DNA from: Corynebacterium glyciniphilum AJ 3170
GTDB taxonomy: Bacteria > Actinomycetota > Actinomycetes > Mycobacteriales > Mycobacteriaceae
Direction of reading: 5' to 3'
Assembly: GCF_007673095.1 (NCBI RefSeq)
Contig: NZ_VDYZ01000004.1
Span: 1 to 64,000 of the forward strand
Length of the DNA: 64,000 nt
Part shown: positions 2,518 through 44,262 of the stretch, one piece after another
Layout of the letters: each line of letters begins with the position of its first letter
How positions within the stretch are numbered: the stretch's first letter is position 1
Program-made: the position numbers and the translations under genes
The notes under the pieces: model-generated
The model's input: only the letters and a program-made list of their open reading frames with translations
Told to the model about the DNA's origin: nothing
The model's database searches: none

Positions 2518-4218
<1,701 letters not shown>

Positions 4219-4234
4219 AGGCACCCGCCTCATC

Positions 4235-4268
4235 ACAGCCGCACCCCAACTACGCGGGGTGCGGCTGT
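4235..4268 (+). terminator. Hairpin terminator after ctaD
   Basis: A 13-bp perfect stem, ACAGCCGCACCCC (4235-4247) and GGGGTGCGGCTGT (4256-4268), sits 17 bases after the ctaD stop and before serB. Confidence 0.8.
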
Positions 4269-4290
4269 TCTCGTCTGCGGCCGTCCATGA

Positions 4291-4296
4291 GACAAT
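4291..4296 (+). promoter_or_regulatory. Candidate -10 box of serB
   Basis: GACAAT ends 7 bases before the GTG at 4304. There is no ribosome site in front of that codon, so a leaderless start is plausible, although the first base departs from TAnnnT. Confidence 0.4.
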
Positions 4297-4303
4297 AAGC
4301 CCC

Positions 4304-5575
4304 GTGGACCAGCAGAATTCCTCCCGTCACCTCACCGTCAGCCTCGCCCCCGGACTTTCCCCCGGCGTCGTCACCGTCACCGGGCCCGACGCCCCCGGAG
4401 TGTCCGCGGATTTCTTCCGCATCCTCGCCGACCACGGGGTCCAGCTCCTGGACGTCGAACAGGCGAACTTCCGCGGCACGCTCAACCTCGCCGCCTACAT
4501 CGGAGTCGTCGCCGGCAGTACCGAGGCGATGCGCCAGGCACTGACCGATGAACTCACCGACCGCGACATGACCGTCACCCTCGATGTCGACGACGAACTC
4601 GAAGGAAGTCGCGCGCGCTCCACGCACGCCGTCATCGTCCTCGGGAACCCGGTCACCGCCGAGCACATCTCCGCCATCGGCCAGACGCTCGTGGACCACG
4701 GCGCGAACATCGACCGCATCCGTGGCATCGCCGACTACCCGGTCACCGGTCTCGAGCTCAAGGTCACCGCAGCGGATCCGGCCCCGGGTGGGAGCGCGAC
4801 CCTCCGCCAGGCACTCGCCTCCGTGTCCCACGCCACCGGCGTGGACATCGCCATCCAGCGCGCCGGCCTGACCCGTCGTGCGCCCCGCCTGATCTGTTTC
4901 GACGTCGACTCCACGCTGATCCAGCAGGAGGTCATCGAGATGCTGGCCGCCCACGCCGGTCGCGAGGCGGAGGTCGCTGAGGTCACGGAGCGTGCCATGC
5001 GTGGCGAACTCGACTTCTCCGAGTCACTCCACGAGCGGGTCAAGGCACTGAAAGGGCTGGACGCCTCCGTCATCGACGAAGTCTCCCGCATGGTCCAACT
5101 CACGCCGGGCGCCCGGACCACGATCCGCACGCTCAAGCGGCTGGGGTTCCGCACCGGGGCTGTCTCAGGTGGATTCGTGCAGGTGCTTGAACCGCTCGCG
5201 AGGGAACTCGGCCTGGACTTCTACCGTGCGAACACTCTCGAGATCAAGGACGGGAAGCTGACCGGCCGCGTCATCGGCCAGGTCATCGACCGTGACGTCA
5301 AGGCGGAGAGCCTCAAGGAGTTCGCCTGGTCCAACGGCATCGCACTGCACCAGACCGTCGCCGTGGGCGACGGCGCCAATGACATCGCCATGTTGTCCGT
5401 GGCAGGCCTGGGCATCGCCTTCAACGCCAAGCCGGCGCTGCGTGAGGTCGCCGATGCGACGGTCAACCATCCCTTCCTCGACGAAGTTCTCTTCATGCTC
5501 GGCATCGACCGGGAGGAGATCGACGCTGCGGACCTCGAGGACGGCAGCTACCGTCGCGTCCCGCTGGAGCGCTGA
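4304..5575 (+). CDS. serB: Phosphoserine phosphatase SerB (ACT-HAD)
   Basis: The 423-aa protein performs the last step of L-serine synthesis, hydrolysing O-phosphoserine. The N-terminal half (about residues 8-175) looks like two ACT-type regulatory units. The HAD phosphatase domain follows, with DVDST at 200-204 (Asp200 nucleophile, Asp202 general acid), the VSGGF motif and GDGAND around Asp356. The frame is open back to a GTG at 4259, but that codon lies inside the ctaD terminator stem. I therefore take GTG 4304, which directly follows a -10-like box. The next gene starts on the base after the stop codon, so the two are probably co-translated. Confidence 0.93.
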   Translation: MDQQNSSRHLTVSLAPGLSPGVVTVTGPDAPGVSADFFRILADHGVQLLDVEQANFRGTLNLAAYIGVVAGSTEAMRQALTDELTDRDMTVTLDVDDELEGSRARSTHAVIVLGNPVTAEHISAIGQTLVDHGANIDRIRGIADYPVTGLELKVTAADPAPGGSATLRQALASVSHATGVDIAIQRAGLTRRAPRLICFDVDSTLIQQEVIEMLAAHAGREAEVAEVTERAMRGELDFSESLHERVKALKGLDASVIDEVSRMVQLTPGARTTIRTLKRLGFRTGAVSGGFVQVLEPLARELGLDFYRANTLEIKDGKLTGRVIGQVIDRDVKAESLKEFAWSNGIALHQTVAVGDGANDIAMLSVAGLGIAFNAKPALREVADATVNHPFLDEVLFMLGIDREEIDAADLEDGSYRRVPLER

Positions 5576-30129: not shown

Positions 30130-30885
30130 TCAGAAGTAGTTGGCCAACGGGCCGTACTCGGTCTCCAGGACCTGGACGTCGGTACCGAAGATACCGGTCA
30201 GCACGTCATCCTGGATAACCTCCTGCGGGGTACCGAACACGTTGACCTCGCCGTTGGTCATGGCACAGATGTGGTCGGCGTAGCGGGCCGCGAAGTTGAT
30301 GTCGTGCAGCACGATGATCACGGTGCGCCCGAGTTCGTCGCAGGCGCGCCGCAGCTGCTTCATCATCTGGACGGAGTGCTTCATGTCCAGGTTGTTCAAC
30401 GGCTCGTCCAGCAGGACGTACTCGGTGTTCTGCGCCAGGACCATTGCCACGTAGGCACGCTGTCGCTGACCGCCGGAGAGCTGGTCGAGGTAGCGGTTCT
30501 CGAGTTCGCCGAGATTGAGGAAGTCGATGGCCTCCGAGATGTACTTCTCGTCCTCGACGTTGAGCCGTCCGTGGGAGTACGGGTAACGCCCGAACCCGAC
30601 GAGCTGCCGGACGGTGAGGCGGGTGACGAAGTGGTTCTCCTGCCGCAGGATCGACAGATGCTTCGCGACCTCGCCGGAGCCTGTCGATGCCACATCCATG
30701 CCACCGACTCTGATGGTCCCGGTGTCAGGTTTCTGCAGGCGTCCGATCATGGTCAGCAGGGTGGACTTCCCGGCACCGTTGGGACCGACGAGTGCGGTGA
30801 CTCCGCCAGCAGGGATGTCGAGGGAGATGGGTCCGATAGTGGTTTCGGCGCTGTAAGTTTTGGAGACGTTGGCGATGGAGATCAC
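30130..30885 (-). CDS. Ferric-siderophore ABC transporter ATP-binding protein
   Basis: The 251-aa ATPase has Walker A GPNGAGKST, signature LSGGQRQRAYVAMVLAQ, Walker B YVLLDEPLNNLD and switch His in VLHDINFAARYADH, as in FecE/YclP-type proteins. It powers import through the two permeases upstream. Its start overlaps the preceding permease stop by four bases. Confidence 0.93.
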   Translation of the reverse strand: MISIANVSKTYSAETTIGPISLDIPAGGVTALVGPNGAGKSTLLTMIGRLQKPDTGTIRVGGMDVASTGSGEVAKHLSILRQENHFVTRLTVRQLVGFGRYPYSHGRLNVEDEKYISEAIDFLNLGELENRYLDQLSGGQRQRAYVAMVLAQNTEYVLLDEPLNNLDMKHSVQMMKQLRRACDELGRTVIIVLHDINFAARYADHICAMTNGEVNVFGTPQEVIQDDVLTGIFGTDVQVLETEYGPLANYF

Positions 30886-31988
30886 AAGCGGCCCTTTCGC
30901 ATGATGAAGAAGAGGAACAGCGCCCCGCCGACAAGTTCGATCACGATGGTGACCATGCCCTCAGCGTAGAAGATGTTGCGCATGATGAAATAGGAACCGG
31001 ACATGACGATATACCCCACCAGTACGGCTACCGGCAGGATCAGCCGGTGGTCGTATGTGTCGGTGAGCTGGTAGGCCAGGGTGGCGACCAGGAAGCCGAG
31101 GAAAGTCATCGGCCCGACCAGGGACGTGGTCATGGCCATCAGAACAGCCACCAGGAACAACAGGATCATCAACTCACGTTTGTGGTTGACACCGAGGTTG
31201 TTGGCGGCGTCCTTTCCCAGAGCGACCACGTTCATCCGCCGTGAGCGGAGGAAGAGGAACGTGCAGGCCACGATCACGATGGGGATGACCAGGGGGAAGT
31301 TGTCGGTGTCAGCGTTTCCGAGGTTCCCGAAGTTGCGGGCTGTCAGGACATCGAATTCGTTGGGGTCGAGCAGACGCTGCATGAAAGTGGACAGGGAGCC
31401 CAGGCCTCCGCCGATGACCACACCGACCAGCAGCATGATCTGGATATTGCCGAATCGCCCGGACAGTAGCCAGCTGTACAGGAAGACAGCGAAGACGATC
31501 ATCAAGGAGGACTGGAAGATGAACTGGGTCGTCCCGGTGAAGGCGTTCAGACCGCCTACCCCCAGGAAGAAAATCACCGCGGTCTGCGTCACCACATACA
31601 GTGACTCGAACCCCATGATGGATGGCGTGATGATGCGATTGTTCGTCGCTGTGTGGAAGGAGACGGTGGCGAACGCCTGGCAGAACGCGACGATGAGCAT
31701 GGCGACCAGGGATTCGACGCGCATGCCGGCGATCTTCCAGTAGCCGCTGGTCCCGAAATCCATCGGGTTGCCGTAACTCAGATGACCCATTGTGAATCCT
31801 GCCGCAGCGATGCCGAGCACGGTCACCAGAATGATGTAGCGGGTCCGTTCCTTCCTGGTTGCGAACGGGCCGGAGTGCCTTCGTGAGCGTCGGACATCGG
31901 AGGTGTCGGCATTCCCGGTGCTGTTGTGGGAGAGATCGTGTTCGGGATCCTTGAGCTCTGCGTAGCGGTCAGAGGAATTATCGGGCAT
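30882..31988 (-). CDS. Ferric-siderophore ABC permease (FecCD family), second subunit
   Basis: The 368-aa protein has a long polar N-terminal cytoplasmic stretch of about 50 residues (basic, with RRSRRHSGPFATRKERTR) and about nine helices. The GKDAANNLGVNHKRELMILLFLVAVLMA coupling-helix region is the conserved contact with the ATPase. It pairs with the upstream permease as in CeuBC/YclNO. It overlaps the first permease gene by 11 bases and the ATPase by 4. Confidence 0.92.
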   Translation of the reverse strand: MPDNSSDRYAELKDPEHDLSHNSTGNADTSDVRRSRRHSGPFATRKERTRYIILVTVLGIAAAGFTMGHLSYGNPMDFGTSGYWKIAGMRVESLVAMLIVAFCQAFATVSFHTATNNRIITPSIMGFESLYVVTQTAVIFFLGVGGLNAFTGTTQFIFQSSLMIVFAVFLYSWLLSGRFGNIQIMLLVGVVIGGGLGSLSTFMQRLLDPNEFDVLTARNFGNLGNADTDNFPLVIPIVIVACTFLFLRSRRMNVVALGKDAANNLGVNHKRELMILLFLVAVLMAMTTSLVGPMTFLGFLVATLAYQLTDTYDHRLILPVAVLVGYIVMSGSYFIMRNIFYAEGMVTIVIELVGGALFLFFIMRKGRL

Positions 31989-32994
31989 GGCGGCGGCTCC
32001 TCAGCAACAGGAAGACGAAGACGACAGCGCCTATCACACCGAGAACCACTGACACAGGGACTTCGAAAGGCATGATGATGGTGCGGGCGATGATGTCACA
32101 GATGATCAGGATGCATATGCCGAGCATGCATACCCACGGGAGGTTCGACCGCAGATTGTCGCCCCGGAACAGCGATACGATGTTCGGCACGATCAGCCCG
32201 AGGAAGGGGAGGGAACCGATGACGACGGTGACGACACCCGAGACCACGGCCACCATCATGATGCCGACCATCAGGACGGTGCGGTAGTTCAGCCCGACAT
32301 TGGTCGCGATGTCCTTGCCCAGCCCGGCGACGGTGAAGCGGTCGGCGATGATGAACACCAGGATGGTGACCGCCAGGACGATGAACAGGAGTTCGTACCT
32401 GCCCCGGACGACTCCGGTGAAGCTGCCGGCGAACCAGATTCCCAGCTGCTGCAACATGTCCGTACGCAGCGCCACGAATGTGGACAGGGAACCGACGACC
32501 GCCCCGAGCATGATCCCCACCAGTGGCACGATCAGTGACGACTTCAGGGTCACCCGCTGCAGGAACATGAAGAACACGATCGTTCCGACCAGGGCGAAGA
32601 TGATTGCTCCGACCATACGGGTCATCATGCTGGCGCCGGGGATCATCACCATGGTCAGGATAAGGCCGAGTCCGGCCCACTCCGTGGTGCCGGTGGTCGT
32701 GGGTTCAACGAACTTGTTCTGTGTCAGCAACTGCATCACCAGACCACACATCGCCATTGCTGCACCGGCGAGTGCGAGTGCGATGGTGCGGGGGATACGG
32801 GTGATGCCGAACATGTTCCACCCGTCCTCGCCACCGGTGATGTCGTAGACACCGATGAACAGGGAGGCGATCACCAGGGCAATGGTGAACGCTATACCGA
32901 GGAGGATCGGCCAGGTAGTACGCCACCGGGACGTTGTCCGTGGCGGGTCATGGGAGGGTGGTGCCTGGTCGGCGGAGTGTGGTGCGACGGTCAT
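31978..32994 (-). CDS. Ferric-siderophore ABC permease (FecCD family), first subunit
   Basis: The 338-aa protein has about nine to ten helices and the coupling motif GKDIATNVGLNYRTVLMVGIMMVAVVSG. The frame extends to 33132, but ATG 32994 has GAAGGA five to six bases upstream and the extension covers a structured intergenic hairpin. A 156-base gap separates it from the binding-protein gene. Confidence 0.92.
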   Translation of the reverse strand: MTVAPHSADQAPPSHDPPRTTSRWRTTWPILLGIAFTIALVIASLFIGVYDITGGEDGWNMFGITRIPRTIALALAGAAMAMCGLVMQLLTQNKFVEPTTTGTTEWAGLGLILTMVMIPGASMMTRMVGAIIFALVGTIVFFMFLQRVTLKSSLIVPLVGIMLGAVVGSLSTFVALRTDMLQQLGIWFAGSFTGVVRGRYELLFIVLAVTILVFIIADRFTVAGLGKDIATNVGLNYRTVLMVGIMMVAVVSGVVTVVIGSLPFLGLIVPNIVSLFRGDNLRSNLPWVCMLGICILIICDIIARTIIMPFEVPVSVVLGVIGAVVFVFLLLRSRRHAR

Positions 32995-33042
32995 ACGGGT
33001 CCTTCGCTGCGGGTGTCGCTTCTTCGGGCGGTGACACGGTGA

Positions 33043-33089
33043 CGCCCGGGAGAGCACGGCGTTCTGTCTTGCCGTTCCGTTCCCGGGCG
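33043..33089 (-). other. Large stem-loop between the binding-protein and permease genes
   Basis: CGCCCGGGA (33043-33051) and TCCCGGGCG (33081-33089) form a perfect outer stem; ACGGC and GCCGT pair inside. It has no T-run. In an operon whose first gene encodes the binding protein, such a stem often protects the upstream mRNA or reduces downstream expression; that role is inferred. Confidence 0.5.
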
Positions 33090-33150
33090 CTCGCCCGGCT
33101 CGGACTGACCGGGTGCGAGTGTGTGCCGGCATGGCACCGGCGATGGTGGA

Positions 33151-34176
33151 CTACTCTGCGTCGTGAGCCTCGAAGGCGTCGGCGATGTTGTTCAGGACCT
33201 CAGTGTAAGCCTCAATGTCCTCGGTGGTGTAGAAGTCCGACGGGAAGTAGACGATGTTGTCGTTCTCGACGGCAGGGACGTTCGTGAGGGCCGGGGAGTC
33301 CGCGATGATTTCGGCGGCGGGCTGCGCGTCCTCTTCGGAGTTCACACCGGCGTCGCGGTCCATGACCAGGATCCAGTCGGGGTTGGACGCGGCGATCTGC
33401 TCAATGCTGATGTCATCGCCCTGGTGGTTGCCGGAGCCCTCCTGGTCAAGCGCCGGGGTCAGGTCGAGCATCTCGAAGACCGGGCCGACAGAACGGCCGG
33501 TGACCGGGGCAGCGTAGTTGATGTTGCCGCCGGAGACGACGACTCCCATCACGGTCTCGTCGGCGTTGTAGGCTGCGGCGGCGCGTTCCTTGGCGTCGTC
33601 GAAGTCGGACTCGAGGGAGCTCGCTTCATCCTCCTTCCCGAAGATCTCACCGATCAGTGAGGTGATGTCTTTCAACCGATCCTCGAGGGGAAGCTCGTTC
33701 TCTGCATCCTCGTCCTCGAAGTTCTCACCGAAGCTCAGGTCGACGACCGGAACATCCGGGAGAAGTTCCTTCATTTCGTCGTAGTAGCTGGCGTAGCGGT
33801 AGCCGGTGACGATCAGATCCGGCTCCGAGGCGACGAGCTCCTCGAGGTTCGGCTCGTTGTGGTTGCCGGTGTTCCTGATCTCTGTGTCGTCGTGGTACTT
33901 CGTGATGGTATCCGGGATCAGGTCGACCGGTGCGGACACCAGATCGATGTCCCAGTCCTCGAGGACCTGGAAGATTCGGTTGTCGAAGGCGGCGACGCGC
34001 TCGGGTTCGGCGGGGATCTCGACCTCGCCACGGGCGTCGGTCACAGTACGGGTGTCGCCGCTGCCGTTGTCCGAGTCATCATCGGACGAGCAGGCGGCGA
34101 GAGCTCCCATGGAGAGTACGGCGGTCATGGACACGGCCAGCGCGCGGCTGGACGTACGACGGAGGGTGAAGCGCAT
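33151..34176 (-). CDS. Siderophore-binding lipoprotein of the ABC importer
   Basis: The 341-aa lipoprotein has a signal with lipobox MGALAAC, a Ser/Asp linker and a periplasmic-binding fold of the FatB/CeuE/YclQ class: TRTVTDARGEVEIPAEPERVAAFDN at the start, LEELVASEPDLIVTGYR and a C-terminal NNIADAFEAH helix. It captures ferric siderophore, possibly of catecholate or mixed type like petrobactin, by family resemblance only. The ATG 34176 follows AAAAGGA by 9 bases; an upstream in-frame start (34218) is rejected because it has no signal logic. It heads the operon. Confidence 0.93.
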   Translation of the reverse strand: MRFTLRRTSSRALAVSMTAVLSMGALAACSSDDDSDNGSGDTRTVTDARGEVEIPAEPERVAAFDNRIFQVLEDWDIDLVSAPVDLIPDTITKYHDDTEIRNTGNHNEPNLEELVASEPDLIVTGYRYASYYDEMKELLPDVPVVDLSFGENFEDEDAENELPLEDRLKDITSLIGEIFGKEDEASSLESDFDDAKERAAAAYNADETVMGVVVSGGNINYAAPVTGRSVGPVFEMLDLTPALDQEGSGNHQGDDISIEQIAASNPDWILVMDRDAGVNSEEDAQPAAEIIADSPALTNVPAVENDNIVYFPSDFYTTEDIEAYTEVLNNIADAFEAHDAE

Positions 34177-34277
34177 TCGGCAGGTTCCTTTTCTTGGCGG
34201 CCGTCCCGCCGGAATCAACGTCAGGAGTCTTCCGGTGGCACGGTCTCGGACGGGCTGAGCAAAACTCGTTCAGCGGC

Positions 34278-36912: not shown

Positions 36913-38667
36913 TCATGTGTGCGGCGTCCTGTTTGCGTTCCACGCCGCCCATAAACGGGAGTAGGGGCCGTCGTCGGCAACGAGCTCGGCGTGGGTGCCG
37001 TCCTCGATGACGCGCCCCTGCTCCATGAGAACGATCCGGTCGCAGGCGGCGGCCTGGGAGAGGCGGTGGGCGATGACGACACCGGTGCGCCCCTGAAGCA
37101 CGACCTCGGCAGCGTGGTCGAGGTCCGCGGCATGCGCTGAGCCCGCTTCGGCGGTGGCTTCGTCGAGGATCGCGAGATCGGGGTCCGCGATGAGCAGCCG
37201 CGTGAGGGCGAGGTGCTGTTCCTGCGCTGCGGTGAGCGGGTGTCCCTGCGCTCCGACCGGGGAATCCAGCCCGAGGGGGAGTTCATCGAGGAGGTCGGCG
37301 GCACCGACGCGGGTCAATGCCGTGACCAGGTCTTCGTCGGTGACGTCGGGTGCTGCCAGAGTGAGGTTGTCGCGCAGGGTTCCGGAGAAGATGTGGGTCT
37401 CCTGGCTGACCAGCATCGTGTCGGTGGGCGCGTCCACGGTGCCCGTGGACGGCCGGTGGATCCCGGCGATGAGTGCTGCCAGCGTCGTCTTCCCGGCTCC
37501 CGAGGTACCCACCACGGCGACGCGTTGCCCGGCGGGGATGCTCAGGGAGACGCCGTGGAGGACGTCGGCGGCGCCCTCATAGGCGAACCGTACGGAGTCG
37601 ACACGGACACGGCCTCCGGAACGGCTGTCGGCCTCCTCCTGTTTCTCCGTTACGTCGGGGGTATCCGGAACGTCCGGGCCGGAACCGAGATCGGTGACCC
37701 CGATGATGCGGGCCAGTGAGGCCGCGGCGGCCTGCAGTGTGTCGATTTCGATCATCAGGCCCCGCAGCGGTCCCTGGAGGCGCAGGAAGTACAGTACGGC
37801 GGTCGTGGCCGCCCCCACAGTGACCAGATCTGCCCCCACCAGCCCGTAACCGACGAACAGGACGGTGCTCAGCACAGCGACGAAAGCCAGGTCGATGCGC
37901 CAGGCGAACATCGTCTGCACCGTACGTGCCCGCAGCGCCCAGGTGGCGACGGCCCACGACGACAGTGCGATGCGCACGGAGTGCCATCCGGACAGCCGGT
38001 AGGCCAGCACTGTGTCCAGCCCCCTCAACGCTGACAGCAGGTGGTGGGCGCGCGTACCGAATGCGGCCCGTTCGGCGGCGTACAGCGGCGGTGCCAGCCT
38101 GACGTACCACCGCAGGGCCAACCAGTACAACGGGACCGCAGCGAGAAACGTCAGCCCGAAACGCCAGTCCAGCAGGAACAGACCGCCCAGGGTCAGGAGG
38201 ATGGTGAACACGGTACGTGACAGGGACGGCAGGACCTGGGACAACGCCTCAGAGACCTGGGCGACGTCGTCACTGGCACGGGACACCAGGTCCCCGGTAC
38301 CGGACCGTTCGACCCTCTCCTGGGGCATGCGCAGGGCGGTGGTGACCAGACGTTCACGCAGTGTGGCCAGAAGCCGCTCCAGCACACGCGACGCCAGCAG
38401 GACCCCGAGGACGCCCAGCGCGGAGGCTGCCACGACGGCTGCGGCGATCGAGCCTCCGTAGAACCATATCGGCCGGGTCTCTCCACCGTCGGAGATGTCG
38501 TCGACGATAGTGCCGAGCAGGGCAGGGGTCACCAGCTCCAGTGCTGCCGCGCCGGCGGAGATGACGGCGGCGAGGATCAGCAGCGCACGACGTCCCTCGA
38601 GGGCCTGCCAGACAGCGACGGTGGAGCGACGCCCTGTCGCCACGGGAAGACGTTCGGGGCCGGTCAC
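36913..38667 (-). CDS. ABC exporter half-transporter with intact Walker motifs but degenerate signature
   Basis: The 584-aa protein has six membrane helices (about 25-310) and an NBD. Walker A GTSGAGKTT (387-395), Q-loop Gln422, Walker B ILDEAT with catalytic Glu503 and switch His534 are intact. The signature, normally LSGGQ, reads LTAAQ (478-482). The fault is the exact complement of that in the upstream partner, so the pair should form one working and one dead ATP site. The start GTG overlaps the partner's stop (GTGA). Drug, lipid or siderophore export are possible; substrate is unknown. Confidence 0.9.
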   Translation of the reverse strand: MTGPERLPVATGRRSTVAVWQALEGRRALLILAAVISAGAAALELVTPALLGTIVDDISDGGETRPIWFYGGSIAAAVVAASALGVLGVLLASRVLERLLATLRERLVTTALRMPQERVERSGTGDLVSRASDDVAQVSEALSQVLPSLSRTVFTILLTLGGLFLLDWRFGLTFLAAVPLYWLALRWYVRLAPPLYAAERAAFGTRAHHLLSALRGLDTVLAYRLSGWHSVRIALSSWAVATWALRARTVQTMFAWRIDLAFVAVLSTVLFVGYGLVGADLVTVGAATTAVLYFLRLQGPLRGLMIEIDTLQAAAASLARIIGVTDLGSGPDVPDTPDVTEKQEEADSRSGGRVRVDSVRFAYEGAADVLHGVSLSIPAGQRVAVVGTSGAGKTTLAALIAGIHRPSTGTVDAPTDTMLVSQETHIFSGTLRDNLTLAAPDVTDEDLVTALTRVGAADLLDELPLGLDSPVGAQGHPLTAAQEQHLALTRLLIADPDLAILDEATAEAGSAHAADLDHAAEVVLQGRTGVVIAHRLSQAAACDRIVLMEQGRVIEDGTHAELVADDGPYSRLWAAWNANRTPHT

Positions 38668-40400
38668 AGTTCCACCACCCGGTCACAGCTCGCCAGCATG
38701 GTCGGTGATTCCGTGATCACCAGTGTGGTCCGTCCGGTGCGGAAGGCACCGAGACGGGACGCCACAGCATTCTCCGTGACCGCGTCGACGGCGGTGGTGG
38801 GGTCGTGGAGGACGAGGACCGGTGGGTCCGCGGTCAGTGCCCGGGCCAGGGCGACACGTTGACGCTGACCGCCGGACAGGCGCGTACCACCCTCGCCCAC
38901 CCTGGTCTCCATCCCGTCCGGCAACGACTCGACAATGTCGTCGCAGGCGGCGGCATGCAGTGCCGGGTGGAGGAATGCGCCGGTGTCGGGGTGGCCCGGT
39001 GCGAGATTCTCCCGGACCGTCCCGTCGAAGAGGTCCGCGGCGTGCGGTGCTGTCAGTACGGTCGCGCGATAGTTCTCGATCGGCAGTGACGCGGCGTCGA
39101 TGTCGTCTGAACCGTGCATGGTCAGGATAACCTCCCCGGGGCTGCCGGAGGAACGACCGTCCGACAGGAGTGTGACCAGGTCGCGTCCTGGTTTCCCGCC
39201 GGCGCGCACACCCACGAACTCGCCGGGGGTGACGGTCAGGACGTCGGCGCCGTCGCGCATGACCCGAACGCCCGGGGATGACAGTGCCTGGACCGTCGGA
39301 CCGGAAGCGTCCTCGTGCTCGACAGGTGCGCGTAGAAGATCCAGCACGCGTTCGGCCGACGCGACCCCCGTGGCCCAGATGGCGCCTGCGTTCGCCGGAA
39401 GCATCGTCAGGGGGCTGACGAGGAACTGGGTCACCCCGACGACAGCCACCAGTTCTCCGACGCTGAGTCGACCGGTCAACGCGAACCACGCGGCACAGAC
39501 AGTCAGCGCGGCGATGAACACCCCGGTGACGGTGTTCATCGACACGAGGAACAGTGCCCGGGACGATCTGGCCCGCAGGGCGCCGTCCATGGCCAGTCTG
39601 CTGACATCCACGTACCGTGACGAGGCCTCGTTTTCCGCACGAAGCCCCTTGATCACCCGGTATCCGGTGATCAGATCGGTCGCCCGCCCTGTCGCGCCCG
39701 CGGCGAGGGCCTGTTGCTCCCGGCTCCGGCGCTGCAGCGGGCGGCCGGCCGACGTCATCAACCACAGCATCAGCGGCCCGCCGATCAACACGGCGAGTCC
39801 GAGCGGCCAGGAGATGGTCAGCAGGATCACCGCAGAGGCGAGTATGGCCGCGATTTCGCCGACGGGATAGAGCCCCAACTGCATCGTCGCCGCCAGACGG
39901 AAGACGTCGCCGGTGGCCACGGACAGCAGTGCGCCGCCGAGTCGACGGTCCTTCATCCCCGCCGGGTGCAGCAGTCGTTCGGTGACCTGCATGCGTAGCC
40001 GGTGTTGCACGGTCTGCATGCCGAAGAAGCCCATACGTGAACCGAAGCGGAAGGTGAGGGACATCAGTCCGACGTCGAGTGCCAGCAGGACGGTCCAGAG
40101 CACCAGTTGACCCAGATTCCCGGCGGCGATACCACGGTCCACGGCGGCGCCCGCGATGACCGGCAGTGCCGCGGCCGCGATGTTCGAGAGGATCAGCAGG
40201 CCGCCACCGGGCAGAGTGAATTTCTTCGCACCGAGGATCACCCGCCAGGTGAACTGCGACGGTGTCGGATCATCGTCGACGACGACCGGGTTCGCGACGC
40301 GTGGACGTTCCGGCGCCTGGAGCAGGAGCGGCCACCGGACTCCGAGGGCGTGGCTGCGCAGTGATTCTCCGTCAGCGGGGGCGGGGGAGGTCAGGGCCAT
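38664..40400 (-). CDS. ABC exporter half-transporter with intact signature but degenerate ATP-binding motifs
   Basis: The 578-aa protein has six helices (about 60-320) and a degraded NBD. The Walker A position reads GVRAGGKPGRD (397-407), lacking the GxxGxGKS/T pattern; the Q-loop Gln is His453; Walker B Asp is His532 and the catalytic Glu is Asp533; the switch His is Glu564. Yet the signature LSGGQRQR (508-515) is perfect. It has an AGGAG site 7 bases before the ATG and is the first gene of the pair, divergent from an RpiR regulator. Confidence 0.9.
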   Translation of the reverse strand: MALTSPAPADGESLRSHALGVRWPLLLQAPERPRVANPVVVDDDPTPSQFTWRVILGAKKFTLPGGGLLILSNIAAAALPVIAGAAVDRGIAAGNLGQLVLWTVLLALDVGLMSLTFRFGSRMGFFGMQTVQHRLRMQVTERLLHPAGMKDRRLGGALLSVATGDVFRLAATMQLGLYPVGEIAAILASAVILLTISWPLGLAVLIGGPLMLWLMTSAGRPLQRRSREQQALAAGATGRATDLITGYRVIKGLRAENEASSRYVDVSRLAMDGALRARSSRALFLVSMNTVTGVFIAALTVCAAWFALTGRLSVGELVAVVGVTQFLVSPLTMLPANAGAIWATGVASAERVLDLLRAPVEHEDASGPTVQALSSPGVRVMRDGADVLTVTPGEFVGVRAGGKPGRDLVTLLSDGRSSGSPGEVILTMHGSDDIDAASLPIENYRATVLTAPHAADLFDGTVRENLAPGHPDTGAFLHPALHAAACDDIVESLPDGMETRVGEGGTRLSGGQRQRVALARALTADPPVLVLHDPTTAVDAVTENAVASRLGAFRTGRTTLVITESPTMLASCDRVVEL

Positions 40401-40488: not shown

Positions 40489-40514
40489 TGAGGTTCACCT
40501 CATATGAGGTGAAC
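40489..40514. promoter_or_regulatory. Palindromic operator with three TGAGGT hexamers phased by 8 bp
   Basis: Bases 40493-40514 are a perfect 22-bp palindrome centred on CATATG. TGAGGT occurs at 40489 (plus), 40497-40502 (as ACCTCA) and 40505 (plus), each 8 bases apart with alternating strand. It lies between the divergent exporter and RpiR regulator promoters and is the best operator candidate in the window. The binding protein is presumably the adjacent regulator, but that is inference. Confidence 0.65.
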
Positions 40515-40554: not shown

Positions 40555-41364
40555 ATGGAGTTGGTGGAGAGGATTGAGGCGCACCGCAGGAGCCTGACTC
40601 CGGCAGAGACCCGGGTGGCGGATTTCATGGCGAACAACCCTCACAGCGTGGGGCACCATTCGGCACTCCGTCTCGCGGACGCTGTCGGTGTGAGCGATGC
40701 GACGGTGGTGCGTACCGTCCGGAAACTCGGCTTCGGCGGACTTGACGACCTCAGGGAGAGGCTCGCCGACGACTTGTCCCGCGGGGGACGGATGGGCGCG
40801 TCACTGCGGGACGGCGCGGTTTCGCGCACCATTCGTGAGCACGTCGGTGGGGCTGAGTCACTTGTGGAACGGGTGAATGAGGATGACCTGCTCGAAGCGG
40901 TGGAGCTCATGGCGCAGGCGAGCCGCATCGTCCTGGTCGGCTTCGGCCCGTCGCGTCATATCGCCGAGTACGCCGCGGCGCGCAGCGTCCGCACCGGCCT
41001 GAATGCCGTGGCGCTGGGGACAACCGGAATGGGTTTCGCCGATGACATCGCGATCCTCCGCGACGATGATGCCGTCCTCCTGTTGGCCTACGACGGTACA
41101 TCCGTGGAGGCGGACGTACTTTTCGTCCGCGCCACGGAGCTCAGTGTTCCCGTCGTCCAGCTGACCGAGGGGGTGTTGACCTCAGATCCGCGGAGTGCGG
41201 TGGCGTTGGCCATCGGACGGGGCAACCCTGACTTCAGTCCCAGTTACGTCGCGACCGTCGCCGTGCTGGAAGCACTGATCGTGGCGACTGCGGCGAAAGA
41301 CCCGGAACGCAGCGAACGCGCCGGGGAGGTCGTCGACCGCTTCCGAGGTGAACTCGGAGGGTGA
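40555..41364 (+). CDS. MurR/RpiR-family transcriptional regulator
   Basis: The 269-aa protein has an N-terminal winged HTH (about 1-77: LTPAETRVADFMANNPHSV, then ALRLADAVGVSDATVVRTVRKLGFGGLDDLR) and a C-terminal SIS domain (about 110-240: IVLVGFGPSRHIAEYAA, LLLAYDGTSVEADVLFVR) that usually senses a phosphosugar. It is divergent from the ABC exporter with a palindrome between them, so it probably controls the exporter and itself. The serine in the typical SIS phosphate loop (SxSG) reads DGTS, so the ligand may differ from ordinary sugar phosphates. Confidence 0.9.
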   Translation: MELVERIEAHRRSLTPAETRVADFMANNPHSVGHHSALRLADAVGVSDATVVRTVRKLGFGGLDDLRERLADDLSRGGRMGASLRDGAVSRTIREHVGGAESLVERVNEDDLLEAVELMAQASRIVLVGFGPSRHIAEYAAARSVRTGLNAVALGTTGMGFADDIAILRDDDAVLLLAYDGTSVEADVLFVRATELSVPVVQLTEGVLTSDPRSAVALAIGRGNPDFSPSYVATVAVLEALIVATAAKDPERSERAGEVVDRFRGELGG

Positions 41365-42678: not shown

Positions 42679-44262
42679 ATGTCCAACGACGACACACAGG
42701 CCCAGCCGATGAAGCTGGAGCCGCCTGTCGCCCAGGCGCCGGGTGCGCCGGCCGCGCCGTCGGCTCCGGCGACGCCTGCCGCCCCTGCCACTCCCGCTGA
42801 ACCAGAGTCGGCTGAGACTCCGGCCGCGACAGAGGCTCCGGCCACCCCGGAAGCGCCTGCTGACACTCCGGCGGAGGGGGACGCTGCGGAGCCGACGTCT
42901 GAGCCCGCCGCTCCGGGAGCTCCCATGAAACTCTCCGCACCAGGTGCGCCCGGTGCGCCCGGTGCGCCGGGTGCTCCGAGTGCGCCTGCAGCGCCGGCGG
43001 CCTCTGCTGCCCCCAGCGCTCCGTCTGCACCCTCCGCCCCGTCGGCCCCGAGTGCACCGGCGGCCCCTGGCGCGCCTAGCGCCCCGGGCGCTCCTGCGGC
43101 CCCGGGAGCTCCCTCAGCTCCTGGCGCCCCGTCGGCTCCTGTGGCTCCGTCGGCTCCTGCCGCCCCGGGTGCACCTTCTGCACCGGCAGCACCGGGCGCC
43201 CCTGGTGCTCCCTCGGCTCCGGGTGCGCCGGGAGCCCCTGCCTCCCCGGGGGCCGCTGCGCCGGCCGCTCCGGGCGCCCCGGCAGCTGCTACTACCGTGG
43301 CGACCCCGAAGACGGGAAGCTCGGCGTCCAAGGAGAAGCCGAAGAAAAAGCGCGAGCCGATCATGATCGGCGAGAAGTCCCTGGCACAGTGGGGCAAACT
43401 AGCCGGCATCGGTCTGGTCATCGCCGCCGTCGCAGTGGCCGTGGTCATCTTCGTCGCCCGGTGGATCTACGACCTGTCCGGCGTGCAGAACTTCATGGAG
43501 ACCTACCACGGTGAATATGATCCGCCAGAGTTCGTGGAGGATGGTTTCCCGGCCTGGGCACGGTGGACCCACTTCCTGAACTTCTTCTTCATGGCGATGA
43601 TCATCCAGTCCGGTCTGCGGGTCCGCCAGCAGCAGAAGCCTCCGGCAGTCTGGCAGCCCAAGAAGGGCGGCAAGAAGATCAGCATCCACCTGTGGCTGCA
43701 CACCTCACTGGACCTGCTGTGGATGCTCAACGGCGTGATCTTCATCGTCCTGCTGTTCATCTCCGGACACTGGGCCCGCATTGTGCCCACCAGCTGGGAC
43801 GTCTTCCCCAACATGCTCACCAACATGCTGCAGTACGCTTCACTGAACTGGCCGGAGGAGAACGGCTGGGTCAACTACAACAGCCTGCAGCAGATCATGT
43901 ACTTCGTCGTCGTGTTCATCGCCGCACCGCTGGCGATCATCTCCGGTCTGCGGATGAGCGAGTGGTGGCCGAAGAACGCCACGAAGCTGAACAAGATCTA
44001 CCCGGCACCGGTGGCGCGTAAGATCCACTTCCCGACGATGCTGTTCTTCGTGATGTTCATCGTCGTCCACGTGTTCCTGGTGTTCGCCACCGGTATGACG
44101 AAGAACCTGAACCACATGTTCGCCGGTACCCCTGCCGAAGGCTGGGGCGGGTTCTTCTGGATGCTCGGTGCGGTGATCGTGACCGTGGGAGTGCTCTTCG
44201 CGACGCGTCCGCTGGTGCTCGCGCCGATCGCCTCACGCTTCGGCCAGGTCAGCGCCCGGTAG
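42679..44262 (+). CDS. Cytochrome b561-like membrane protein with long Ala/Pro-rich N-terminal region
   Basis: The 527-aa protein has two parts. Residues 1-215 are almost only Ala, Pro, Gly, Ser and Thr in APGAP/APSAP units, predicted disordered; MKLEPP and MKLSAP at residues 11 and 83 mark two sub-blocks. After a basic stretch (KEKPKKKRE) residues 235-527 form about five helices with candidate haem histidines in RWTHFLNFF, SIHLWLHTSLDLLW and KIHFPTMLFF/VVHVFLV, as in di-haem cytochrome b/b561. It probably passes electrons between quinones and a partner, unknown. TAGGAGAC precedes the ATG. A perfect terminator follows. Confidence 0.85.
   Translation: MSNDDTQAQPMKLEPPVAQAPGAPAAPSAPATPAAPATPAEPESAETPAATEAPATPEAPADTPAEGDAAEPTSEPAAPGAPMKLSAPGAPGAPGAPGAPSAPAAPAASAAPSAPSAPSAPSAPSAPAAPGAPSAPGAPAAPGAPSAPGAPSAPVAPSAPAAPGAPSAPAAPGAPGAPSAPGAPGAPASPGAAAPAAPGAPAAATTVATPKTGSSASKEKPKKKREPIMIGEKSLAQWGKLAGIGLVIAAVAVAVVIFVARWIYDLSGVQNFMETYHGEYDPPEFVEDGFPAWARWTHFLNFFFMAMIIQSGLRVRQQQKPPAVWQPKKGGKKISIHLWLHTSLDLLWMLNGVIFIVLLFISGHWARIVPTSWDVFPNMLTNMLQYASLNWPEENGWVNYNSLQQIMYFVVVFIAAPLAIISGLRMSEWWPKNATKLNKIYPAPVARKIHFPTMLFFVMFIVVHVFLVFATGMTKNLNHMFAGTPAEGWGGFFWMLGAVIVTVGVLFATRPLVLAPIASRFGQVSAR

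Follow-up and report, generated by a model that had tools for sequence, protein, structure and literature searches.

Can an ATP-binding cassette (ABC) exporter work with a single ATP site while its second site is unable to hold ATP? This question is raised by two adjacent genes of Corynebacterium glyciniphilum AJ 3170, which lie in a stretch of 64,000 nucleotides (contig NZ_VDYZ01000004.1, positions 1 to 64,000; in the following the window). Gene B (38664..40400, − strand, 578 amino acids) encodes an ABC half-transporter with a transmembrane domain (TMD, PF00664) and a nucleotide-binding domain (NBD) that lacks the P-loop; gene A (36913..38667, − strand, 584 amino acids) encodes a second half-transporter, the putative catalytic partner. 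The start of gene A overlaps the stop of gene B by 4 nt and both open reading frames (ORFs) are intact. The original prediction for this locus had described the two products as an exporter with one intact and one dead composite ATP site. From the sequence comparisons reported here we consider it likely that B and A are the obligate partners of a heterodimeric type IV ABC exporter in which one ATP site works and the other is unable to hold ATP.

Motif states of the two subunits

In both proteins ABC_membrane (PF00664) and ABC_tran (PF00005) score above cut-off, the TMD precedes the NBD, and each protein is a separate half-transporter by Pfam; the third Pfam match is a sub-threshold AAA_22, and there is no fused siderophore-reductase domain. 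The ABC_tran match spans profile positions 1–137 of 137 on A and only 52–136 on B, so that the P-loop half of B goes unrecognised. The individual motifs were followed in a table with 121 rows each for A and B, all from Actinomycetota and with the window included; one B row (L108) is cut off by a contig end before it reaches the NBD, which leaves 120 informative B rows.

Gene A encodes every element that an ATP site needs in cis (all positions − strand): the A-loop aromatic Tyr363 (37579..37581; Tyr in 120 and Phe in one of the 121 A rows), the Walker A motif GTSGAGKT (residues 387–394, 37486..37509; its three Gly and the Lys in 121/121), the Q-loop Gln422 (37402..37404; 121/121), the Walker B pair Asp502-Glu503 (37159..37164; 120/121, one gap) and the H-loop His534 (37066..37068; 119/121, two gaps). 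All cis elements occur together in 119 of the 121 rows and the remaining two have gaps. The signature of A is degenerate, reading LTAAQ (residues 478–482, 37222..37236), and Ser-Gly at positions 2–3 is found in 0/121 A rows. Its D-loop is likewise degenerate (AEAG, 37141..37152), with Gly in 102, Asp in 17 and a gap in 2 of the rows.

In B, the place of the lost Walker A motif is taken by GVRAGGKPGRD (residues 397–407, 39180..39212, − strand like all positions that follow). The pattern GxxxxGK[ST] occurs in 0/120 B rows; a Lys stands in the P-loop column of two rows (L106 and L107), neither of which has a P-loop. The Q-loop Gln is replaced by His453 (39042..39044), the position being His in 103, Arg in 8 and Gln in none of the 120 rows; His532-Asp533 (38802..38807) stand where the Walker B Asp-Glu would be expected, and Glu564 (38709..38711) where the H-loop His would be. 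When the Q-loop Gln, the Walker B DE pair and the H-loop His were scored together, 9 B rows kept a single one of them and all others had lost the three. The A-loop column is gapped in 119/121 B rows, a count that depends on the alignment. What B retains is the signature LSGGQRQR (residues 508–515, 38856..38879), predicted to be donated in trans to the site of A, and the D-loop TAVD (38784..38795): SGGQ is found in 120 rows and the D-loop Asp in 120/121, the row lacking SGGQ being the truncated L108. The D-loop had not been part of the original prediction; it is split in the same way as the other motifs, with the Asp kept in B and lost in A.

The near fixation of the Q-loop His in B, where it forms part of a PH motif (39042–39044 in the window), is an observation in its own right. 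This position seems to be kept for another role, perhaps a contact with the TMD.

All residues named originally for Walker A, Q-loop, Walker B, H-loop and signatures of the two proteins were found at their positions. One composite site is intact, made of Walker A, Q-loop, Walker B and H-loop of A and of signature and D-loop of B, and in the other the inspected elements are lost, the whole P-loop included. The motif table thus places the elements required in cis in A and those required in trans (signature and D-loop) in B. The split is not due to chance, for it is repeated across the table (121 rows each of A and B, one B lacking the NBD), and the survey of motif pairs in orthologues proposed earlier agrees with the window. 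In heterodimeric exporters the deviant signature is carried by the subunit with the catalytic Glu. The sites had been called exactly complementary: the split itself is seen, but it is the geometry to be expected when each site mixes elements of both subunits, and the unusual part is the loss of the P-loop. As A lacks the signature and B the P-loop, neither homodimer could form a canonical site.

Spread and common descent of the family

A survey profile was built from six B sequences. It matched 126/242 genomes of the genus (E ≤ 1e-60), 85/151 of the family (E ≤ 1e-70), 41/296 of the class (E ≤ 1e-120) and 9/198 of the phylum (E ≤ 1e-80), five of the latter outside the class; these counts are not mutually comparable because thresholds differ and samples overlap. 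The loci were drawn from 120 stretches around selected matches and four plasmid records; among the stretches, L016–L018 (duplicates of L052, L051 and L054) were dropped, and L161, L163, L165, L166, L167 and L174 were classed outside the family and left uncounted. A single-sequence scan of named genomes gave three true relatives among five loci, and the closest named relative of B that was found comes from Corynebacterium sp. CNJ-954 (91% identical). The host genome (3.58 Mb) itself holds four such pairs, the window's included; the others lie on contigs C199 (64% for A, 59% for B), C459 (near 158 kb) and C437 (near 36 kb). GxxxxGK[ST] is present in 4/4 A and 0/4 B proteins of this genome. Fragments of an A gene on contig C448 near 28 kb (L012, 3771–4614, −) look like a dead copy.

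As the profile was derived from proteins without a P-loop, weaker matches were examined further down the list in ten genomes. All matches fetched between 4e-102 and about 5e-71 were of the P-loop-less kind. From 1e-69 to 6e-65 this kind (L162 and L164) alternates with single long ORFs that carry two Walker A motifs (L161 and L163). Four loci inspected at still weaker scores were all ordinary, namely the long ORFs L165 and L174 with two Walker A motifs, and L166 and L167. L166 is a classical asymmetric pair, with GTTGAGKS, LSGGQ and VLDDP beside GPTGAGKS, LSAGE and VLDEA; a pair of this kind is the likely starting point of the family.

A tree was then calculated from 348 membrane-domain columns only, with 257 rows including 15 outsiders (ordinary edge loci, long ORFs cut in two and four reference exporters from the host genome). 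The 121 B rows form an exact group (support 0.989), as do the 121 A rows (0.986), and the outsiders bearing Walker A fall outside both. Hence, in our sample, absence of the P-loop and membership of the B clade go together. Orthologues with intact motifs, which would have marked the window's gene as a decaying copy, were not found among the 120 B rows with an NBD, and these belong to one clade. The trait described originally is real; its attribution to this locus is to be revised, as it belongs to a large old family. By this survey the loss is a family trait spread over the phylum and not the decay of the copy in the window, and the family appears old and widespread in Actinomycetota, kept as an operon and once as one ORF.

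Shortening and selection

The distance from the P-loop position to the Q-loop is 45–48 residues in four reference rows and 48 in 87/121 A rows. In 32 B rows (L108 not counted) this stretch measures 15–31 residues and is thus shorter by a third to two thirds. An exact bipartition, supported at 1.0 in both the full and the TMD-only trees, unites thirty-one of the shortened B with L061 (37 residues); a midpoint-rooted tree had split this clade, which was recovered by the rooting-independent bipartition test. L088 is placed apart from it, and shortening must therefore have occurred at least twice.

Next, we compared selection on the two genes. Whole-gene ratios of nonsynonymous to synonymous substitution rates (dN/dS), from seven pairs each, were 0.09–0.20 for A and 0.11–0.27 for B. 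Ratios of the proportions of nonsynonymous and synonymous differences (pN/pS) for B residues 370–440 were 0.58 and 0.52 in two close pairs. Pooled over six pairs, which are not independent, and with bootstrap intervals, pN/pS was 0.32 (0.20–0.52) in the P-loop segment of B (390–440), 0.05 (0.00–0.13) in the P-loop segment of A, 0.05 (0.01–0.11) from signature to D-loop of B, 0.10 in the TMD of B and 0.18 (0.13–0.25) from the Q-loop of B to its end. B is a maintained protein and the former P-loop is its most relaxed part.

Pairing of A and B

A gene for A stands beside B on the same strand in 119/121 B loci, with a gap above 100 bases only at L059 (479 bases) and with A preceding B in L095–L098. 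In a Corynebacterium (L066, 3787–8028, +) B and A, of the shortened type, are joined in one ORF of 1414 codons. The two B loci without A are L108, at a contig end, and L168. A search with A matched 110/242 genomes of the genus at E ≤ 1e-110 and contributed ten further loci. Eight of these, chosen by eye, were A matches without a listed B and thus candidates for A genes lacking a partner; all eight turned out to be adjoined by a P-loop-less B. In the remaining two, the genes of an intact pair lie about 1.4 kb apart (L184), or B is split (L183). In L183 (2524–11459, −) the two pieces of B are separated by about 5 kb, possibly an insertion, next to an intact A; in L101 A is intact and B is broken by in-frame stops. 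Trees of A and B correlate at 0.957 over 102 pairs, a value to which shared species history contributes and which has no shuffled control. Pairing with other partners had been named as a finding that would speak against the heterodimer, and we saw no sign of partner swapping. The heterodimer geometry is taken over from known ABC exporters, and operon structure, the single-ORF case and the logic of the motifs point to physical pairing.

Gene context and possible substrate

Seven markers within each stretch were counted (SidA, two isochorismate enzymes, a binding protein, two permeases and a siderophore-interacting protein), leaving out the window, L151 and L153. A siderophore-related match was present in 43/118 loci, which are not independent; matches are partly weak, and L055, L091 and L116 are counted through a siderophore-interacting-protein match of 29–32% alone. 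Comparison loci, a small control, had markers in 1/9 (L167, on the same contig as a family pair). On plasmids of Tsukamurella tyrosinosolvens and Rhodococcus sp. 2G the pair lies within clusters containing isochorismate synthase, isochorismatase and an AMP ligase, in the former also a SidA-type monooxygenase. On the plasmid of Streptomyces sp. NBC_01558 the pair is flanked by genes for a SidA-type monooxygenase and an ABC binding protein, with iron-chelate permeases and a nonribosomal peptide synthetase (NRPS) a few kb off. No such siderophore genes were found near the pair in the plasmid record of Arthrobacter ERGS1:01, and the two shortened-type pairs inspected, L087 and L104, adjoin a methyltransferase and an esterase instead. 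From the 43 loci beside siderophore-related genes we conclude that many members of the family probably export siderophores; substrate and direction of transport are inferred.

In the window, genes of the ferric-siderophore uptake type (an ATPase, two FecCD permeases and a binding protein; 30130..34218, − strand) provide an iron context, the closest of them about 2.7 kb from A. No siderophore biosynthesis gene was present among the ten neighbours scanned, and a siderophore is a possible substrate of this pair. Further neighbours are a UPF0014 gene at 29.4 kb and two DUF308 genes after A. Divergent from B lies a gene for an RpiR-type regulator (HTH_6 and SIS domain matches; 40555..41364, + strand), and a gene of the same type is likewise divergent and upstream of B in L053. 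Between B and this gene we found a perfect 20-bp palindrome, TTCACCTCATATGAGGTGAA (40494..40513), which is identical in L052 and L053 and is a possible operator. A DtxR-type iron box upstream of B was rejected: the best score there was 12/19, within the range of 20 random sequences (maximum 12–14). Farther away, an ORF of 527 amino acids (42679–44262, +) opens with an extended repeat tract rich in Ala, Pro and Gly (GAPGAPGAPSAPAAP-like), followed by hydrophobic, membrane-like stretches.

A proposed single-site cycle and its alternatives

In the proposed cycle, Walker A, Q-loop, Walker B and H-loop of A would close on the LSGGQ motif and the D-loop of B to form the working site. The second site would be lost on both sides, through the P-loop of B and through the signature and, in most members, the D-loop Asp of A; in many relatives the loss in B takes in much of the stretch with the P-loop helix. 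This site is most likely without ATP and would serve as a protein–protein contact only. Binding of ATP at the one site would draw the NBDs together and flip the TMDs outward, and hydrolysis at that site would reset the transporter, with one nucleotide per cycle and no stored ATP at the second site. A one-site transport cycle, which the original prediction put forward as strict, seems the best reading of the sequences.

The pair might instead be an ordinary asymmetric exporter like TM287/288, TmrAB or MsRv1273c/72c, whose degenerate site has lost nothing but hydrolysis and goes on holding ATP as a hinge. The half-transporter architecture is the same by Pfam, the asymmetric pair with intact Walker A motifs in L166 (LSGGQ/DD with LSAGE/DE) is close in sequence, and Pdr5 is reported to show ATP in its dead site despite deviant Walker A and signature motifs (PMC7756269, PMC8421411). 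However, the proteins named keep a P-loop, even if altered, and here the pattern is absent from 120 of 120 B, with the stretch of P-loop and helix cut by a third to two thirds in 32 of them; we regard an ATP-filled hinge as improbable in this family. It is also unlikely, in our judgement, that B serves for regulation or as a scaffold, its reduced NBD doing no more than setting the assembly of A, in a complex that acts as an importer. IrtAB is described as importing ferric siderophores with an exporter fold, and uptake genes lie near many pairs including the window's, but B has kept signature and D-loop throughout, as expected of a catalytic partner. Moreover, uptake genes are in view in two of the annotated siderophore clusters: one of these has a binding protein of its own, the other its own FecCD-type permeases and binding protein. 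By Pfam, the window's A and B consist of transporter domains alone, with no fused siderophore-reductase domain.

Gene decay, whether of the window's copy or of B in general, with A acting alone or with another partner, is hardly credible and largely refuted. Degraded copies do exist, with stops in the B of L101, the B of L183 split around about 5 kb and the A fragments of L012. Against this stand the similar purifying selection on A and B orthologues, the low pN/pS from signature to D-loop in B and the presence of A beside B in 119/121 loci; A itself lacks the signature needed for an A homodimer.

Several points weigh against an exporter with an empty second site. The dead site is not equally dead in every B: the Walker B Asp is kept in 18 rows and the Walker B Glu in 25, with the DE pair complete in 8, and the H-loop His is kept in 1/120 (L118). 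Some shortening appears compatible with ATP binding, as 16 A proteins, the window's included, have only 35 residues between P-loop and Q-loop with the P-loop intact. The P-loop segment of B is relaxed and yet not neutral, its interval overlaps that of the remaining B NBD, and the pooled pairs are not independent. L168 is the only clear orphan among the 121 B: its B gene (3104–4816, −) has no A within 8.5 kb and follows a long open frame near NRPS-type matches; it may have a distant A partner. None of the seven markers was nearby in 75/118 loci. AlphaFold2 models of B and A, from alignments of four sequences, had a mean pLDDT (predicted local distance difference test) of 48 and 46 and were unusable, being silent on site and dimer. 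ATP could in principle lodge via contacts other than the P-loop, and the nucleotide occupancy of the second site is read from sequence. Finally, the weaker-match rows counted were picked after their motifs had been seen, with a profile made from P-loop-less sequences, and a P-loop-bearing member beyond the sample is possible; the membrane-domain tree speaks against the choice of rows having made the result.

With these points weighed, a nucleotide-free second contact is the reading we prefer. It is likely that Actinomycetota contain a phylum-wide exporter family in which one NBD no longer binds a nucleotide and is kept as donor of signature and D-loop, a one-ATP machine for which a stored-ATP hinge would be unneeded in type IV export.

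Comparison with known systems

By its motifs the pair represents an asymmetric ABC exporter in a conserved form whose degenerate site has lost its ATP pocket. A review presents the degenerate site as a stable hinge that holds ATP and stays under constraint (PMC7756269). MsRv1273c/72c binds ATP at each of its two sites, and at the degenerate site the nucleotide sits in a Walker A groove (PMC12038006); in Pdr5, called the extreme case, ATP is still seen in the deviant site (PMC8421411). P-glycoprotein retains about 15% of transport after mutation of one Walker A Lys (PMC4846820), so that one site can suffice in principle. Among the titles and abstract beginnings of the open-access matches listed we found no paper on an exporter half without Walker A, which is no proof of absence. 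For RamA/RamB (class III lanthipeptide export), considered as candidate members, the matches listed gave nothing usable. The family offers a natural test of the ATP-hinge view. Should the second site truly be empty, the hinge would not be a general model and the minimal NBD partner would be signature plus D-loop; the family would then be a simple system for measuring symmetry, coupling and the number of ATP per cycle with no second nucleotide involved. Our results also suggest that many actinobacterial siderophore clusters carry such exporters.

The P-glycoprotein single Walker A mutants resemble the family in having one site disabled, but they are engineered point mutants and not a natural family. 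ABCG5/G8, TAP1/TAP2 and CFTR also have one degenerate site; there the changes are substitutions within motifs, for example Walker A Lys to Arg in ABCG5/G8 (PMC7756269). The yeast Pdr5/PDR transporters share changes of the Walker A Lys, the Walker B Glu, the H-loop His and the signature of one site (PMC7756269), whereas Pdr5 is a single chain with the NBD before the TMD and has a Walker A motif with Cys for Lys (PMC8421411). IrtAB is, like the pair described here, an actinobacterial ABC system with an exporter fold and a link to siderophores; unlike it, IrtAB is a mycobacterial importer of ferric siderophores. It is a heterodimer whose IrtA carries a siderophore-reductase (SID) domain, and by Pfam the window's A and B have no such domain. 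The architecture is shared with TM287/288, TmrAB, BmrCD and MsRv1273c/72c, which consist of two half-transporters with one consensus and one degenerate composite site and changes in both subunits. Compared with MsRv1273c/72c, the P-loop of one subunit is gone here and the surrounding stretch much shortened in 32 B, which makes this a large natural family with a further-diverged site: the P-loop is gone in 120/120 B, and roughly one in four of these also has a much shorter stretch around its former place.

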